Shown: piece after piece, positions 28,187-35,252 of the stretch
How the letters are laid out: each line of letters opens with the position of its first letter
Position numbering within the stretch: the stretch's first letter is position 1
Origin: an uncultured bacterium
Lineage (GTDB): Bacteria > Bacillota > Clostridia > Lachnospirales > Lachnospiraceae
DNA length: 40,256 nucleotides
Direction of reading: 5' to 3'
Assembly: GCA_947177425.1 (NCBI GenBank)
Contig: CAMWUN010000032.1
Coordinates: 1-40,256 of the forward strand
The notes under the pieces: model-generated
Database searches by the model: none
Told to the model about the DNA's origin: nothing
The model's input: the letters and a program-made list of their open reading frames with translations, nothing else
Program-made: the position numbers and the translations under genes

Positions 28187-29518
28187 ATGGATAATCAAAA
28201 TGTATATTTAAAACCTGTCACCCTGAAAAATGCTTTGAGGTTTGCCATACCGACCATTGCCATGACGGTGTTTATGTCTTTTTATACGATGGTTGACGGT
28301 CTGTTCGTGGCAAATCTGATTGGAACCAGCGCCCTGTCAGCCATTAACCTGACTGCGCCGGTAATCCAGCTTGTGACGGCTGTTTCCACTATGCTTGCCA
28401 CAGGGGGAAGCGCTGTTATTATGAAAAAAATGGGAGAGCAGAAGAGTGGGGAAGCCAAGGAGGACTTTACCTTCCTCATTCTGGTGAATGTGCTTGTAGG
28501 ACTTATCGTGTGCGGCCTGGGGTATCTGGTGATGGAAGGTATTTTTGCAGGGATGAATCTGTCTGCAGATGTGTCTGGATACTGTGTGGAATATTTAAGC
28601 CGCTATCTGCTGTTCACCGTTCCCATTCTACTGATGAACAATTTTACCCTTTATATGATTGCCAGCGGAAAGGCCGCGCTTTCCCTGGCTTGTTCCGTGG
28701 CAGGGGGTGTGCTGAATATGGTTCTTGATTATGTATTCATTGCGGTTTTACATATGGGAATCAGCGGTGCGGCAATTGCAACGGGAATGGGATATTCCGT
28801 AACGGCGGTGACAGGGCTGTTTGTTTTCAGCAGGCAAAAGAGCCTTCTGCACTTTAAAAAGCCTGTATGCCGGTTCAGAGTCCTTGCAAATGCCGCCGCA
28901 AACGGGTGCTCCGAGATGGCTGCGGCTCTTGTCACTGGAATTATTACGATGATGTTCAACTGGACTATGCTCCGTTATGTGGGTGAGGACGGCGTTGCGG
29001 CCGTAACAATCATAATGTATGTGCTGATGTTTGCAAGTTCCCTTTACACCGGCTATTCTTATGGCGTTGCGCCTATGCTCAGCTTTTATTTTGGGGAGAA
29101 AAATAATGAAAAGCTGAAAAAGCTGTGCGATGTCAGTCTGAAAGTAATTGGGGGCATCTCCCTGGTGACGGCAGCGGCGTCTTTTATTCTGACAAAACCG
29201 CTGGTGTCGGTATTTGCCCGTCCTGACAATCCGGTATATGATCTGGCGGTGAGTGGCAACAGAATATGCACCATAGCATTGTTTTTTATTGGCTTTAATA
29301 TATTTGCAAGCGGTATGTTTACAGCCTTATCCAACGGTCTGGTTTCGGCTGTCCTTGCCTTTTCCAGATCCTTTGTGTTTATGCTGGTTACTATGGCTGT
29401 CCTGCCCATGATAATGGGCGTGAACGGTATCTGGCTGGCGACACCCGGGGCGGAACTTATGGCTCTTGCTTTATCGGTATTTATGTACATGAAACATAGA
29501 AAGATGTATGGATATTAA
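28187..29518 (+). CDS. MATE family efflux transporter
   Basis: 443 residues, 12 predicted membrane helices. Start LKPVTLKNALRFAIPTIAMTVFMSFYTMVDGLFVANLIG matches the MATE N-terminal half. The repeat of the family fold begins near residue 235, and the first half carries LDYVFIAVLHMGISGAAIATGMGY. GAAGGAGA about 10 bases upstream. The gene is divergent from a MerR regulator with a 19-bp-spacer promoter, which strongly suggests inducible drug or metabolite export. It differs from the MATE at 19.9 kb and is not a recent duplicate. Confidence 0.93.
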   Translation: MDNQNVYLKPVTLKNALRFAIPTIAMTVFMSFYTMVDGLFVANLIGTSALSAINLTAPVIQLVTAVSTMLATGGSAVIMKKMGEQKSGEAKEDFTFLILVNVLVGLIVCGLGYLVMEGIFAGMNLSADVSGYCVEYLSRYLLFTVPILLMNNFTLYMIASGKAALSLACSVAGGVLNMVLDYVFIAVLHMGISGAAIATGMGYSVTAVTGLFVFSRQKSLLHFKKPVCRFRVLANAAANGCSEMAAALVTGIITMMFNWTMLRYVGEDGVAAVTIIMYVLMFASSLYTGYSYGVAPMLSFYFGEKNNEKLKKLCDVSLKVIGGISLVTAAASFILTKPLVSVFARPDNPVYDLAVSGNRICTIALFFIGFNIFASGMFTALSNGLVSAVLAFSRSFVFMLVTMAVLPMIMGVNGIWLATPGAELMALALSVFMYMKHRKMYGY

Positions 29519-29679
29519 AGAAATTTTTGGGGGAAAGAGAGGATAGTTTCATTGCAGCCAGGGGAGCGGGCATCAAGAAATCCGAAGCGAAGTTGGCATT
29601 CTTGGGGAGATTTCCCGGGAACTGGAGACAGAGATGAAGAAATTTAAGATAAGCGGCCTGTAGAGAACAGGATACTGCG

Positions 29680-29720
29680 GAGCCAAACGCTGTCACGCAA
29701 TGGATGACAGCGTTTGGCTC
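29680..29720. terminator. Perfect 16-bp hairpin between convergent genes
   Basis: 29680-29695 is the reverse complement of 29705-29720 around a 9-base loop. The arms contain ACGCTGTCA/TGACAGCGT, the same half as family B repeats. No T run on either side; it may be a terminator or a repeat-derived palindrome. Confidence 0.6.
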
Positions 29721-29740: not shown

Positions 29741-31171
29741 TTAGCTGTTTTCTCTTGCCAGCATATATTGCAGATCCTGTAACAAATCCGGGTCTTTTCC
29801 GCCAGTCAGATTTACTGCCTGCTGCATTTTTTTAAGACCTTCTTCCCGGCGGCCCATCTGGTAGAGAGCCAGGGCATAGCCGCCAAGGGCATAGGAATCC
29901 TTTTCATTTTGCTTTAGAACTTTCTCGTTGGCTTCCAGGCAGAGGTCATAATTGCCGCACATAAACTCACAGTAACCTTTTTCCTTTAGGGCATCTGCAT
30001 TTTCAGGGTCTGACAGAAGTACCTGTTCCAAAGCCAGGGCTGCCTCCTGATGGTTCCCCTGCCTCATGAGTGTATCCGCCAGCAGAAACAGGGATTTGCT
30101 GTTTTTACAGCGGGCACATTTGTCCTTCATTTCTTTTAAGGCAAGATGGTAAGAACAGTACTGGTTTTCTGAGTAGACGCTGCCATTCATGGTCAGGCGG
30201 GTATTGGGACAGCCGCCCAGGCATTTACTGCCATAGACACAGGTCCTGCATAAGCCAGACAGTTTCTCTTTTGTCATTTCCCTGCGCCATAGGAATTTGC
30301 TTTCATCCTCCCATATCTCCCGCAGAGGCCGTTCTTTGACATTGCCTTCAATATAATCACTGGAGCGGATAGAAGTGCATCCCAGAATATCTCCGTTCTG
30401 CAGTATGCCGAAACCGCGGATACCTGCGTTACAGCCGTCCCAGGGGGCAACTGTGTCTGTCCGGTAGGAGAGCCGTTTGATTTCCAGTTCCTTTTTGGTG
30501 TAGTAGCCGATGCAGTCAGCCGGATAAATGGCAATCCGGCCTTCCCTTGCGGTGTCATAACAAAAATCAATCACGTCTTTAAGCTGCTCCGGTTCCAGTA
30601 CCCAGTCAGGGCGTTCTTTCAGGCTGCCCATGGGCAGGCCAAGCTGTACCTGCCAGCTTTGGACGCCCATACCAATCAGCATTTCTTTTAAATCTTTCAT
30701 GATGCCGATATTTTGTCTGGTGATGGTGGTCACGGCTCCTGTATAAATGCCCAGCTCCCTCATGGTAAGAAAAGCACGCCTTGCGTGGTCAAAAGCGCCC
30801 TCCCTTCTGATTTTGTCGTGGACTTTTGGGGTGCCGTCAATGCTGATTGCGACGGTGGAGATGCCACTGTCCTTTAATTTCTGTGCAGTTTCCCGTTCAA
30901 GGAGCCAGCCGTTTGTGATGATATTTACGGCTACGCCCAGAGAAGAAAGCCGCTTTACCAGCAAGTGGATATCTTTTCTGGTCAGAGGTTCGCCTCCCGA
31001 AAGGGTGATCCATTTCAGCCCTAACTCTGCTATCTGGTAACACACAGCCAGCGCTTCTTCGGTGGTAAGTTCATCTGGAAGAGGATCTGTACAGGAAGAA
31101 CCGCAGTGGCCGCAGCGCATATTGCATCCCATTGTCACCTCCCAGACGCAGGTAATCGGTTGGTATTTCAT
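29741..31171 (-). CDS. Radical SAM/SPASM enzyme with C-terminal TPR domain
   Basis: 476 residues. Canonical radical SAM cluster CNMRCGHC (Cys 16, 20, 23) and GGEP motif LSGGEPLTR; the barrel continues through VAISIDGTPKVHDKIR. The SPASM region has a Cys after APWDGC, one in LGCTSIR, and CRTCVYGSKCLGGCPN (about 300-318) that binds auxiliary Fe-S clusters as in peptide-modifying enzymes. Residues about 365-470 are TPR-like repeats (SLFLLADTLMRQGNHQEAALALEQVLLSDPENADAL), a likely substrate-docking part. AAGGAGG lies 6 bases upstream, directly after the stop of the repeat-bearing protein. Most likely modifies that protein. Other SPASM roles, such as enzyme maturation, cannot be excluded. Confidence 0.88.
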   Translation of the reverse strand: MKYQPITCVWEVTMGCNMRCGHCGSSCTDPLPDELTTEEALAVCYQIAELGLKWITLSGGEPLTRKDIHLLVKRLSSLGVAVNIITNGWLLERETAQKLKDSGISTVAISIDGTPKVHDKIRREGAFDHARRAFLTMRELGIYTGAVTTITRQNIGIMKDLKEMLIGMGVQSWQVQLGLPMGSLKERPDWVLEPEQLKDVIDFCYDTAREGRIAIYPADCIGYYTKKELEIKRLSYRTDTVAPWDGCNAGIRGFGILQNGDILGCTSIRSSDYIEGNVKERPLREIWEDESKFLWRREMTKEKLSGLCRTCVYGSKCLGGCPNTRLTMNGSVYSENQYCSYHLALKEMKDKCARCKNSKSLFLLADTLMRQGNHQEAALALEQVLLSDPENADALKEKGYCEFMCGNYDLCLEANEKVLKQNEKDSYALGGYALALYQMGRREEGLKKMQQAVNLTGGKDPDLLQDLQYMLARENS

Positions 31172-31182
31172 GTTGTACCTCC

Positions 31183-31932
31183 TTAGCAGCAGGGATAACC
31201 ATATTTGGTGATGAAAGGCTCATTCTGGTTACAGAAATATCCATACTTCATGCCAGCGTCCTGGGCGCCGCAGGGGTATCCATACTTCATGCCAGCGTCC
31301 TGGGCGCCGCAGGGATAGCCATACTTCATAAAAGGATCCTGGGGATAGGCGTATGCCATATGGGAATTGAACCGGGCGCTGTTATTCCGGAAAGGCTCTG
31401 CGTTTGCGGTGGGAAAGCCGTACTCTGTACAGGGGAATGTGGGAGGCTTTACACCATACATGACAACGGGATTATAGTCATTGTTAAGAGAGTTCTGGTT
31501 ATAAATCATTCCATAGGGCATCTGCGCCTGTGCAGCTTCCCGGGGGAATGGTACGCCGTAAGGGATGATGGTGTTTGCAGTGTTGTCGGCTTCTTTCTGG
31601 CGGATATCTTCACTATATTTGACATACTCGTCAGAATTATGGGGTATGATGGTCAGGGATATTTTTTCCTCTTTTGCAATTTCTTCCGGCTGGAAGGAAC
31701 ATGCCAGCACAAAGGAAAGCTCGGCTTCCACTGTTTTAGCGGATGATACACCGAAATAAAATCTCTGTATCACAGGGGAAACTCCCGGTCCCATGGGTAT
31801 CGTCTGAATTCCTTCCAGTATAATACCGTCTGGAAGCCCGGCCAGGCACCAGCCGTAGGCTGTTGAACCAAGCATGGACTGTAAATCAACTGTAAAAATT
31901 TTTCCTTCTAAAACTACCATTTCCTGTTGCAT
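31183..31932 (-). CDS. Candidate repeat-bearing precursor of a radical SAM-modified product
   Basis: 249 residues, no signal peptide. Residues about 1-110 form a beta-rich domain with STAYGWCLAGLPDG and IQRFYFGV, which loosely resembles the chagasin/I42 inhibitor fold. The rest is Asn/Pro/Tyr-rich with Tyr-Gly motifs becoming more regular towards the end: IPYGVPF, MPYGMIY, VMYGVKP, TEYGFPT, then KYGYPC, KYGYPC, KYGYFC, KYGYPCC at the terminus. Two units (GAQDAGMKYGYPC) are a direct 39-bp duplication. AGGAGG 8 bases before the ATG. The gene is 11 bp upstream of a radical SAM/SPASM gene on the same strand, so it is likely co-transcribed. Most likely a RiPP-type precursor or modified repeat protein; not recognised as a named family. 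Confidence 0.72.
   Translation of the reverse strand: MQQEMVVLEGKIFTVDLQSMLGSTAYGWCLAGLPDGIILEGIQTIPMGPGVSPVIQRFYFGVSSAKTVEAELSFVLACSFQPEEIAKEEKISLTIIPHNSDEYVKYSEDIRQKEADNTANTIIPYGVPFPREAAQAQMPYGMIYNQNSLNNDYNPVVMYGVKPPTFPCTEYGFPTANAEPFRNNSARFNSHMAYAYPQDPFMKYGYPCGAQDAGMKYGYPCGAQDAGMKYGYFCNQNEPFITKYGYPCC
31238..31330 (-). repeat. 39-bp in-frame tandem repeat in the precursor gene
   Basis: 31238-31276 and 31277-31315 are almost identical, and the start of a third unit lies at 31316-31330. 39 bp equals 13 codons, so repeat number can change without frameshift. Confidence 0.85.
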
Positions 31933-32242: not shown

Positions 32243-32974
32243 ATGAAAATTGCTATTATAGACGACCTGGAAAATGACAGTTTGGTTATTGCAGAGTATC
32301 TGCACAGGTACTTTCAGGAAGTCTCCTGCCAGGAACCTGTGGTAATTGAGCAGTTTGAAGACGGGGAACAGTTTGTCCGTCTTTTTGCGGAAGGCACATA
32401 TGAACTTATTCTGATAGATTACTTTATGAAAGCAATGAACGGACTGGAAACAGCCAGATATATCCGGCAGAGGGATTCCCATGTTTTCATTATTTTTATC
32501 ACTGCAAGCAGGGATTATGCCATTGACTGCTATAAAGTCCGGGCCGCCGATTATATTGTCAAGCCTCCTGTTTATGCCCGGATAAAGGAAGCCATGTCCC
32601 TGATTGACCTTAGCAGCCTGCGGGATAAACAGTGTGTGCAGATTACCTGCGGACGGGAGCAGGTGAAGATTTTTCTAAAGGATATCATCTACTGTGATGC
32701 AGCAGGCCATTATGTGCAGATACACGTGAGCGGCTCGAAACTGCTGCGTTCCAGAATTTCTTTTTCCGAATTTATACGGGAACTGACGCCATATCCCCAG
32801 TTTCTGCTATGCTACCGGGGCTGCCTGGTCAACATGGATCAGATATGCCGGATAGAAAATCTGGATTTTCTGACCAGCGAAGGGGAGCGTATTCCTATTC
32901 GGCAGAAGGAATATGCAAGACTGACGAAAATTTATTACGACTATGTGTTCACAAAAGTCAGGAGCGGCAGATGA
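32243..32974 (+). CDS. LytTR-family response regulator
   Basis: 243 residues of the AgrA/LytR type. N-terminal receiver with acidic pair IIDDLEND, phosphoacceptor Asp in LILIDYFM, conserved Thr/Ser and Lys in FITAS and DYIVKPP; C-terminal LytTR DNA-binding domain (VKIFLKDIIYCDAAGHYVQIHV, LLCYRGCLVNMDQI, IPIRQKEYARLTKIYY). ATGA overlap with the histidine kinase gene makes a cognate pair. Such pairs commonly regulate peptide or surface-protein genes. Target genes are unknown; the divergent precursor operon and the downstream peptidase/transglutaminase genes are candidates by location. Confidence 0.93.
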   Translation: MKIAIIDDLENDSLVIAEYLHRYFQEVSCQEPVVIEQFEDGEQFVRLFAEGTYELILIDYFMKAMNGLETARYIRQRDSHVFIIFITASRDYAIDCYKVRAADYIVKPPVYARIKEAMSLIDLSSLRDKQCVQITCGREQVKIFLKDIIYCDAAGHYVQIHVSGSKLLRSRISFSEFIRELTPYPQFLLCYRGCLVNMDQICRIENLDFLTSEGERIPIRQKEYARLTKIYYDYVFTKVRSGR

Positions 32975-34281
32975 TGGAATCATTACAGCTTTTAAAAATT
33001 TTTTTATATGTATTTCTTGACCTGATTCCCTGTCTTGTGCTGGCACTGGTGCCATACCGGGCCCATTTCAGGTTTTCTGCTGCCAGAACCTATGGCTTTG
33101 TTCCGTTGCTGTTTATTTTGATCTACATAAGCAGGATACTGACACTGGAAGGTGTGGATATTGCCAGAATATTTACAGCTTTATGGACAGGTCTGTACCT
33201 TGGCATGTATATGGCATGTATTAAGATGCCCATCTGCATTCTGCTTTTTACGCTTCTGACTATTTTAAATTATGGAAGCTTTAAGGCAATTATTGTCAAC
33301 TGGATTGTGTACTGGCTGCCAGTACATCCAGTAGGGCGGTATTCCTTTTTTTCCAGTCTGATTCTGCTTGCCGTTTATGCAGTTACGTTTCCTTTCATGT
33401 ATGGCATGATGGAGAAAAAGATAAGGCCCCTGACTGAGCAGACCCGGGGAAACAGGTATTGGCGTTTTTTATGGCTGGTACCTGCCACTTTCTGCCTTTC
33501 CTACTATTATAATCTGTACAGGAATGGAGGCACCGTAGCTTTTTCTTCTGAGGGAGGCAATGTTATTTTTGCGCTGATTCTTAATTTCGGCGCTCTGTTT
33601 GTGACCTTTCTTATTTTACAGCTTTTGAAGGAATGCAATGACAAGCTGCTTTTAGAACAGGAGAACCACTATCTTGCCATGCAGTCTGTCCAATATGAAA
33701 GTTTAAAATACAGGATAGAGGAAGCCAGGCAGGCCAGACATGATTTGCGGCAGCATCTGTCTGTCATGCAGACTTTTCTTCAGAATGGGGATTACGGAAG
33801 CCTTTCAGCGTATATCCATGAATACAGCAGGACTCTTCCCTTAGATTCGCCGATTGCATACTGCGAGGATTATGCGCTCAATGCCCTGATTATTTATTAT
33901 GAAGGCATGGCTGGAGAGCGGGGGGTGCGTTTTTCTGCGGATGTTGACTATCCGCCGGATTCCGGGATTCTCTCATCCGATGCGGTGATACTCTTTGGAA
34001 ACCTTCTGGAAAACGCATTGGAAGCCTGTTGCAGGGAACTGGAGGGGGAACCTTTTATAGCTCTGCGCATCAGGCGGATGCATGATATGATTGTGGCTGC
34101 AGTGGACAATACCTGTACGGCGGATATACCCGGCTATAAAGACGGGATGCCATCGGCCAAAGGAGCCCGCATGGGTATTGGAACAGTTTCCATACAGAAA
34201 ATTGCAGAAAAGTATTGCGGTACGGTACAAATGAAACAGGAAAACGGGATTTTTTACAGTTCTGTGCTGTTAAATCCATGA
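32971..34281 (+). CDS. GHKL-type sensor histidine kinase
   Basis: 436 residues. About six to seven membrane helices in residues 5-220 form an AgrC/ComD-like sensor with no large extracellular domain. A coiled coil (KECNDKLLLEQENHYLAMQ) leads to the H-box RHDLRQHLSVMQTFL (His near 257); the ATP-binding domain has the N-box LFGNLLENALEAC (near 345) and G-box region GARMGIGTVSIQKIAEKYCG. The GHKL type fits sensing of a peptide or membrane signal. ATG at 32971 overlaps the response regulator stop; its own stop is followed at once by an NlpC-like gene. Confidence 0.92.
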   Translation: MMESLQLLKIFLYVFLDLIPCLVLALVPYRAHFRFSAARTYGFVPLLFILIYISRILTLEGVDIARIFTALWTGLYLGMYMACIKMPICILLFTLLTILNYGSFKAIIVNWIVYWLPVHPVGRYSFFSSLILLAVYAVTFPFMYGMMEKKIRPLTEQTRGNRYWRFLWLVPATFCLSYYYNLYRNGGTVAFSSEGGNVIFALILNFGALFVTFLILQLLKECNDKLLLEQENHYLAMQSVQYESLKYRIEEARQARHDLRQHLSVMQTFLQNGDYGSLSAYIHEYSRTLPLDSPIAYCEDYALNALIIYYEGMAGERGVRFSADVDYPPDSGILSSDAVILFGNLLENALEACCRELEGEPFIALRIRRMHDMIVAAVDNTCTADIPGYKDGMPSAKGARMGIGTVSIQKIAEKYCGTVQMKQENGIFYSSVLLNP

Positions 34282-34301
34282 ACAAAAAGGAGGAAGATGA
34301 A

Positions 34302-35252
34302 ATGAGCGCTGCTATCAAAAAGGGAGACATGATTTTGTTTTTTGCAGGGGATACCTGGCTGAGCAAATCAATTTCATATCTCACCAACAGCGAGGTGACA
34401 CATGCCGCCATGGTATATTCGGATGACGCCATCATAGAAATACTTGCCGACGGTGTCCAGGTCAATAAGATTGCAGACTGGAATAACGTGGGGAAGGGGA
34501 AAAAGGCTTATGTTATGCGCCATAAGCCGGAACTTGATTACGCACCCTTAAAAAGGTCTGCGGATGCTTATCTGAACGCTGATGTAAGCTATGACTTTCC
34601 GGGGCTTTACCTGCTGGGGGCGCTGCTTATATATAATAAGTTCGTACCTACTGCCCGGTTTATGAAATGTACAGAGTTTATTCTGGAAATGGCAGTACGG
34701 CAGCTTGATCATGCTATCCAGAAGCAGATCAGGCATAATCCGGGAAAGGCCATGGTCTGTTCACAGTTTATCTACCAGCTTTTTTACGACTGCGGCGGGG
34801 ACTACCGGATACCCATTGTGGACGGATGCTTTTCCCTTAAGAAAAATACAAATGCATGTTGCCCGGGAGAGATTTGCCTGGCAGAACTGCTGGAAGAACA
34901 GTCCATGGACGGACTTGCAGAGGCAGATAATTTTCCTGGCACAGAGGAGCGGGAAGCGGATTTTACTTCCGGCATTCCGGCAGAAGATGCTGTTGAAAAT
35001 GCAGCCAGGGAGTTATATCTGGCGTTAACAGATTCCGGGCAGGCAAATGATGCCGGCGGCCTGCTGGCCGGAACGGAAAATACGGACAGAGTCCTTTCTC
35101 TTGCAGGACGTTTTCTGGATAAACTTAAGGAACTGAAGCAGAGGGCTGGGGCAGACCTGCCTCTGGACGCCATGTTCGTGACTGTGGCGGATTTAGCCAG
35201 CCATGCCCCCAGTCTGGAGCGGATAGGCGCCGTTTATATAGAAAGGGCTTGA
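34302..35252 (+). CDS. YiiX/permuted papain-like (NlpC/P60-type) hydrolase
   Basis: 316 residues, no signal peptide. Permuted papain-like fold: KKGDMILFFAGDTWLSKSISYLTNSEVTHAAMV gives the His (about 33) of the active site; the catalytic Cys is in MVCSQFIYQLF (about 152) with the aromatic residues around it. Family members are thiol hydrolases of peptides, lipids or cell wall. The C-terminal ~110 residues are acidic with helices. ATG at 34302 is preferred (GGAGG 8 bases upstream at 34289-34293); ATG at 34278 overlaps the kinase stop but lacks a site. Coupled to the two-component genes, so it may be a signal-processing or regulated hydrolase. Substrate unknown. Confidence 0.82.
   Translation: MSAAIKKGDMILFFAGDTWLSKSISYLTNSEVTHAAMVYSDDAIIEILADGVQVNKIADWNNVGKGKKAYVMRHKPELDYAPLKRSADAYLNADVSYDFPGLYLLGALLIYNKFVPTARFMKCTEFILEMAVRQLDHAIQKQIRHNPGKAMVCSQFIYQLFYDCGGDYRIPIVDGCFSLKKNTNACCPGEICLAELLEEQSMDGLAEADNFPGTEEREADFTSGIPAEDAVENAARELYLALTDSGQANDAGGLLAGTENTDRVLSLAGRFLDKLKELKQRAGADLPLDAMFVTVADLASHAPSLERIGAVYIERA

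Follow-up and report, generated by a model that had tools for sequence, protein, structure and literature searches.

The window, by which we mean the whole 40,256-nt stretch of DNA that we analyzed, contains two adjacent genes on its reverse strand, which encode a repeat-rich protein (the putative substrate) and a radical SAM/SPASM enzyme (Table 1). An earlier sequence-only reading had described these two open reading frames, the short gap between them, and a repeat tail with four KYGY(P/F)C units, and we found all of them where it had placed them. The stop codon of the substrate gene (TAA) abuts a GGAGG, and the ATG of the enzyme gene lies 11 nt past the substrate's end. The strong hairpin after the enzyme gene probably marks the end of the unit, which would then consist of two genes. 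There is one small ORF on the same strand after the enzyme gene (29481-29696, 71 aa, GTG start), which overlaps the hairpin as well as the end of the MATE gene.

Table 1. Features of the two-gene unit and its divergent neighbors (positions in the window).
Feature	Position	Strand	Remarks
Divergent response regulator (LytTR type) and GHKL sensor kinase	32243..34281	+	Pfam; comparison with L002
Substrate protein	31183..31932	-	249 aa; I42/chagasin-like N-domain and XYG-repeat tail
N-domain, residues 1-107	31612..31932	-	Predicted chagasin/I42 cysteine-protease-inhibitor fold
PYG, residue 124	31555..31563	-	Candidate splice site
PYG, residue 139	31510..31518	-	Candidate splice site
MYG, residue 158	31453..31461	-	Candidate splice site
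EYG, residue 170	31417..31425	-	Candidate splice site
KYGYPC unit 1, residues 203-208	31309..31326	-	
KYGYPC unit 2, residues 216-221	31270..31287	-	
KYGYFC unit 3, residues 229-234	31231..31248	-	
KYGYPC unit 4, residues 243-248	31189..31206	-	
Gap of 11 nt with ribosome-binding site of the enzyme gene	31172..31182	-	Sequence read
Radical SAM/SPASM/TPR enzyme, predicted splicease (tyramine-excising)	29741..31171	-	476 aa
TPR repeats, C-terminal, enzyme residues 359-454	29810..30097	-	Pfam
Strong hairpin	29680..29720	-	17 bp, z -8.3, without U-run; just 3' of the enzyme gene

In both the window and L002 (3648-5704), the latter from a Lachnospiraceae metagenome-assembled genome that carries the substrate, a LytTR-type regulator and a GHKL kinase are encoded divergently from the substrate. 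(In the window, the second ORF of this pair is listed from 32809, but comparison to L002 suggests that it starts near 32971.) By eye, we saw a similar-looking pair within about 3 kb in two other genomes, G054 (L011 12077-14115) and G454 (L077 10322-12348). It is possible that the regulator and the kinase regulate the two-gene unit, and a link to peptide sensing is possible as well. Between the window and L002, conservation of the upstream DNA is scattered except for a TTATTGCCAGAAAA and a TGCTATAATG stretch. Scanning the window with Rfam identified a single tRNA only.

Besides the four KYGY(P/F)C units, the tail of the substrate contains two PYG, one MYG, and one EYG, for eight XYG in all, as well as one AYA at residue 193. 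These additional sites and the folded N-terminal domain were absent from the sequence-only reading. The protein as a whole contains nine YG; when its sequence was shuffled 20,000 times, the YG count had a mean of 1.7 and a maximum of 8. When we scanned the window's own genome for further KYGYP proteins, the three exact matches were all inside the substrate gene. We did not see a signal peptide on the substrate (by eye) or an exporter for it, so the modified product may act inside the cell.

The N-domain of the substrate is predicted to have a chagasin/I42 protease-inhibitor fold. Both lists of similar folds, which were obtained from the predicted fold, were headed by I42-type inhibitors. Searches of PDB sequences with the substrate or with a profile of the N-domain found nothing useful; it was the fold that led to I42. 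Pfam's model for I42 (PF09394) does not match the window's protein, and it matched just one of five N-domains, at E = 0.11; the substrate from G591 does pass it (score of 46.3 versus a gathering score of 27.2). In an alignment of the N-domains, a S-T-x-Y-x-W stretch is kept, and by eye, an RPW-like stretch is present only in G591. (For this comparison we used the RPW-like and other loop motifs that we take to be the inhibitory loops of I42 proteins.) The window's copy differs from the chagasin/I42 inhibitors, such as EhICP2 and chagasin itself, in that it is below detection by Pfam, it is missing one inhibitory loop motif (by eye), it has no visible signal peptide, and it is fused to an XYG tail. 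The N-domain also contains a conserved YG, which would need to escape processing. On the substrate, the models in Pfam and NCBIfam did not identify a leader of either the Nif11 or the NHLP type.

The ORF at 34215-35252, beyond the two-component genes, has weak similarity (30 bits) to YiiX-type permuted papain-fold enzymes. Because the substrate has an I42 domain, we considered a link between the two. The two-component genes stand between them, and the ORF was not seen in the L002 stretch. In L002, the genes past the two-component pair resemble hisS and aspS by eye, so we dropped this link.

In the enzyme, Pfam identifies Radical_SAM (1.1e-25), SPASM (1.1e-7), and TPR (2.4e-10). The sequence-only reading had proposed a search against maturase models, and the top model from NCBIfam was TIGR04103 (rSAM_nif11_3), which we take to be the same family as IPR026482. 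The score of 222.8 bits is below the curated cutoff of 725, so the window's enzyme is not filed in that equivalog family, and TIGR03913 is a close second (195 bits). TIGR04103 was also the top model for all seven of the other members of the enzyme's tree clade that we scanned, six of which are full-length. Besides these six, the enzymes from G158 (a member of the clade) and G646 have this top model, and those from G229 and G461 are nearest to TIGR04133. In our alignment of 41 enzymes, the CX3CX2C cysteines are present in every row, and the seven cysteines of the SPASM region are each present in 37-41 rows. Pfam's gathering scores for TPR were reached by 11 of the 13 full-length clade enzymes that were scanned (the window's is included and G189's was left out); the remaining two, G278a and G278b, have sub-threshold matches only.

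The gene pair was found in six further genomes, which supports the original description of a radical SAM enzyme adjoining a repeat-rich substrate in a RiPP-like arrangement. This gives seven substrates in total (from the window, L002, G148, G189, G054, G735, and G591). In all seven cases, the enzyme gene follows the substrate on the same strand, with an inter-ORF distance of -22 to 192 nt. The substrate is present in 4 of 397 genomes from a sample of the family, and a profile of the N-domain found hits in 3 of 391 genomes from a sample of the class, all of which adjoin the enzyme; both counts include the window's own genome, which has one copy. A genome of the same genus that was in the sample (G264) had neither the substrate nor the enzyme at the cutoffs used. 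The enzyme is more widespread: it was found in 20 of the 397 genomes at E ≤ 1e-40, where the best four are the four that carry the substrate, and its profile found hits in 16 of the 391 genomes at E ≤ 1e-60.

From the family and class matches and L002, we obtained 14 full-length enzymes of 476-552 aa that belong to one clade of the tree. (These 14 lie on one side of a branch, separate from the other labelled groups (99/96); four of the outgroups are from the window's own genome and have very long branches.) Seven of the 14 pair with an I42-type substrate. Another six (G421, G454, G734, G572, G506, and G278a) pair with short peptides that have double-glycine (GG) leaders and repeated K/L/F-Y-G-V/I. 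A C39-ABC gene is within the stretch for five of these six loci, and all five that were scanned with Pfam matched C39; no such gene was seen in the stretch for G454. The 14th enzyme, G278b, is accompanied by GG-type peptides with AYAV or AYAI. Overall, 13 of the 14 enzymes have a multi-XYG ORF in their cluster. The sequence-only reading had suggested that its proposal would be undermined if homologs of the enzyme were widespread without any KYGYPC protein. Taken literally, the GG-leader group is such a case, but its members have other substrates with XYG repeats, so the pairing of enzyme and substrate is refined by this group and not refuted.

Could the repeat protein be unmodified, with the two genes adjacent for some other reason, such as another target for the enzyme? 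The enzymes from G158, G352, and Agathobacter fall inside the clade of 14, and we did not identify an XYG-repeat partner in their stretches (in Agathobacter, there is just an upstream ORF of 68 aa, which has a single MYG), which would fit this explanation. Nevertheless, given that the genes co-occur and are adjacent across genera, and that unrelated scaffolds share the XYG unit, we consider it extremely unlikely.

Two of these relatives of the enzyme are associated with very large proteins that lack XYG repeats (L043 1063-7218 and L044 1610-7241). The G158 enzyme is beside a large protein and is too short to have the TPR tail, and the G352 enzyme is fused to a large protein (a 784-aa ORF).

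To describe the repeats, we considered the 61 YG units that follow the N-domain in the seven substrates. Relative to the Tyr at position 0 and the Gly at position +1, position -1 is Lys in 46, position +2 is Tyr in 41, position +3 is Pro in 45, and position +4 is Cys in 34. In the substrate from G054, the units are KYGYPV, AYGYPA, KYGYPV, and KYGYPT, with no Cys at +4. Among the 24 YG units of the GG-leader peptides, X is Leu or Lys in 18, the residue after Gly is always Val or Ile, and none have Cys at +4. Because picking the units by YG makes YG invariant, we also selected units with two other anchors. With.Yx[YFVIMA]P, x is Gly in 45 of 48 (Ala in two and Pro in one), and with K(x)GY, x is Tyr in 38 of 38. 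As read from these sequences, the recurring unit is X-Y-G-(hydrophobic)-P, and the Cys is optional. The partners of the window's clade carry units such as KYGYP, KYGVP, and LYGIEP. In the G148 substrate (L009 9764-10672, reverse strand), we also noticed six QPFLRN units, which lack XYG, beside the KYGYP units.

The sequence-only reading had suggested Tyr-Cys or Cys-carbon crosslinks as plausible products, and a related alternative is that the enzyme forms thioethers at the Cys of KYGYPC, as in sactipeptides or ranthipeptides. In the window, Cys is present in all four of the C-terminal units, and the six Cys of the tail are in or near XYG units. But across the clade, the expected position holds Cys in just 34 of the 61 units of this substrate type; it does so in none of the four units from G054 and in none of the 24 from the GG-leader peptides, so Cys is dispensable in the repeat. 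These are not the conserved Cys donors in the core that are expected of sactipeptides and ranthipeptides. Also, the models for thioether-forming maturases were below TIGR04103 among the matches listed for the enzyme. On the basis of the repeat statistics, we rejected crosslinking of Cys, and we consider thioethers very unlikely.

The association between the motif and the enzyme is visible across loci. In 43 loci, we found 17 ORFs with at least three matches to Y[GA]x(1-2)P. Of these, 14 are among the 103 ORFs that lie no more than 500 bp from the enzyme, and three are among the 327 other ORFs (Fisher exact test, p = 3.5e-7, with the caveats that the loci were chosen via the enzyme and that related loci are not independent). 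The three distant ORFs are GG peptides that lie past an ABC gene in the same cluster.

The sequence-only reading had found no known precursor type that matched these repeats, but XYG is a known site for spliceases. PlpXY from Pleurocapsa converts the X in XYG, and its natural sites are MYG and LYG (PMC10533398). The same source gives the net reaction, reports that PlpXY is independent of the leader, and counts 27 other characterized systems and 939 predicted ones. PlpX belongs to IPR026482 and excises tyramine from Xaa-Tyr-Gly, and this excision is described as widespread and as exploited for protease inhibition (PMC11002830). The tags described in PMC10533398 include PIRP(L/G)YGLPI and a GYGVVFP form; in G454, one of the peptides includes PIRPLYGIEP, which resembles the tag PIRPLYGLPI. 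In that source's table for FtsZ, the listed LYG tags were unmodified and two GYG forms were modified. Since LYG tags can remain unmodified, the short motif alone is not sufficient for PlpXY.

We propose, with a probability of roughly 0.8, that the window's enzyme is a splicease that excises tyramine at XYG sites in the tail of its neighbor. It could act on up to eight sites: the four KYG of the repeats, the two PYG, the MYG, and the EYG. Each spliced XYG would lose C8H9NO and leave an alpha-keto-beta-amino acid at X. If XYG is a splicease site, then the expected change in mass is about -135 Da per site, instead of the -2 Da that the sequence-only reading proposed to look for. After splicing, the I42-fold domain would carry a string of alpha-ketoamides, most of them derived from Lys. 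The product probably stays large, in agreement with the sequence-only reading.

This proposal rests in part on the resemblance to PlpXY: both are radical SAM/SPASM enzymes of a TIGR04103-like group, the substrate gene adjoins the enzyme gene, and XYG precedes a hydrophobic residue and then Pro (PMC10533398, PMC11002830). There are also differences from PlpXY as described in those sources. In the window, the substrate has many sites, which are mostly KYG instead of MYG or LYG; the substrate is a folded I42-like protein; the enzyme has a TPR tail; and neither a Nif11/NHLP leader nor PlpY was seen. Another related system is a plasmid locus from Nostoc sp. C057 (L089). Its enzyme (WP_179076315.1), which is annotated with TIGR04103 as "nif11-class peptide radical SAM maturase 3," is 32% identical to the window's, and the adjacent precursor ends with LYGLPPELF. 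Unlike the window, the Nostoc locus has a Nif11-like leader, a single YG site, a gene of 71 aa downstream, and an enzyme without a Pfam match to TPR. As a weak test for PlpY-like proteins, we used phmmer to compare the Nostoc 71-aa protein to 1,380 ORFs from 14 loci, and there were no hits at E = 10. We suspect that either the TPR tail or the folded N-domain guides the enzyme to its sites, and that this probably replaces the Nif11 leader and PlpY.

Alternatively, the enzyme might recognize XYG-x-P units and carry out another radical reaction, such as epimerization or the formation of a carbon crosslink between Lys and Tyr or between two Tyr. The identity to the Nostoc enzyme is modest (32%), and several other maturase models score well against the window's enzyme. 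Furthermore, the preferences for Lys before Tyr (46 of 61) and for Tyr after Gly (41 of 61) are more than splicing seems to need. On the other hand, the units of the GG-leader peptides show that the clade as a whole does not depend on Lys or on the second Tyr, and Y-G is what these groups have in common with the sites of PlpXY (PMC10533398). We think that another reaction is unlikely, and we favor splicing.

The GG-leader systems from Clostridia are in the same clade as the window's enzyme (42-47% identity), and they likewise have repeated XYG units, here K/L/F-Y-G-V/I. They differ in that their substrates are short peptides with double-glycine leaders, without an I42-like domain and without Cys at +4. 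A further comparison is with the radical SAM/SPASM enzymes that have an associated lipoprotein (TIGR04133). These form a separate clade in the tree and have lipoproteins as partners, but XYGxP units are found in the neighboring lipoproteins: VYGPP five times in G229, LYGVP in G461, and EYGSP in Parabacteroides. This suggests that the TIGR04133 family targets YG. Lipoprotein-like ORFs with XYGxP were seen beside TIGR04133-type enzymes at L053 7013-7465, L088 6018-6242, and L091 2063-2905. Small DUF1843 proteins are encoded beside a GDL-type (TIGR03913) maturase (L092 3046-3761) and its relative (L093 3168-3881). Near their N-termini, these DUF1843 proteins have MYGG, PYGV, MYMA, LYAA, MYAA, or PYGA, and XY(G/A) may be the target in these proteins too.

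The sister clade consists of 18 radical SAM/SPASM enzymes, mostly of 336-359 aa, and most of them are accompanied by VYAGP-type units (X-Y-A-G-P instead of X-Y-G-x-P). These units are on the same strand in 14 of the 18 loci (L046, L047, L049, L050, L052, L054, L055, L056, L057, L058, L081, L083, L084, and L085); 11 loci have two or more units, with up to 10. When we recounted, there were none at G189b, G373, or G764, and at G105 they were only in an ORF on the opposite strand. The VYAGP protein of L085, which was the only one scanned, matched a zinc ribbon, and we saw zinc ribbons by eye in others. This clade may be a large and unstudied group of protein-modifying systems. In the tree, these 18 rows received their label from the clade instead of from the motif, so a single origin for the group is partly circular. 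Because the sister clade has XYA units, the chemistry of the clade need not be uniform.

Splicing at XYG is already known. What is new here is the I42-fold N-domain of the substrate, with its many and mostly Lys-Tyr-Gly sites, and that neither PlpY nor a Nif11 leader was seen. In our search of the literature, whose scope lay outside the main survey (Scott et al. 2022), we did not find an I42-type or KYG-repeat substrate. Searching for KYGYP returned only a paper on a mussel foot protein, and searching for chagasin together with radical SAM returned nothing.

What might the modified protein do? Alpha-ketoamides act as warheads that bind serine and cysteine proteases covalently but reversibly. 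Since spliced products have been described as protease inhibitors (PMC11117315, PMC11002830), the most likely function of the window's product is protease inhibition. A review from 2022 states that no one had yet isolated a natural spliceotide and that it was unclear what they do (PMC8868522). More tentatively, the product could be a two-headed inhibitor with many sites, in which the I42 fold is directed against papain-like proteases and the string of alpha-keto-beta-lysines against Lys-specific (trypsin- or clostripain-like) proteases, although we doubt this more specific scenario. No export signal was seen on the substrate, so there is no obvious protease for it to target.

If it is borne out that a splicease with a fused TPR tail works without PlpY and without a Nif11 leader, then such an enzyme would offer a simpler way to introduce ketoamides into proteins. 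And with a splicease substrate that is fused to a protease-inhibitor fold and has many Lys sites, the question of function is open to direct assay. If the product does inhibit both kinds of proteases, then the inhibitor came first and the splicease was recruited to it, and in nature, the spliced proteins of at least this branch would serve to control proteases.
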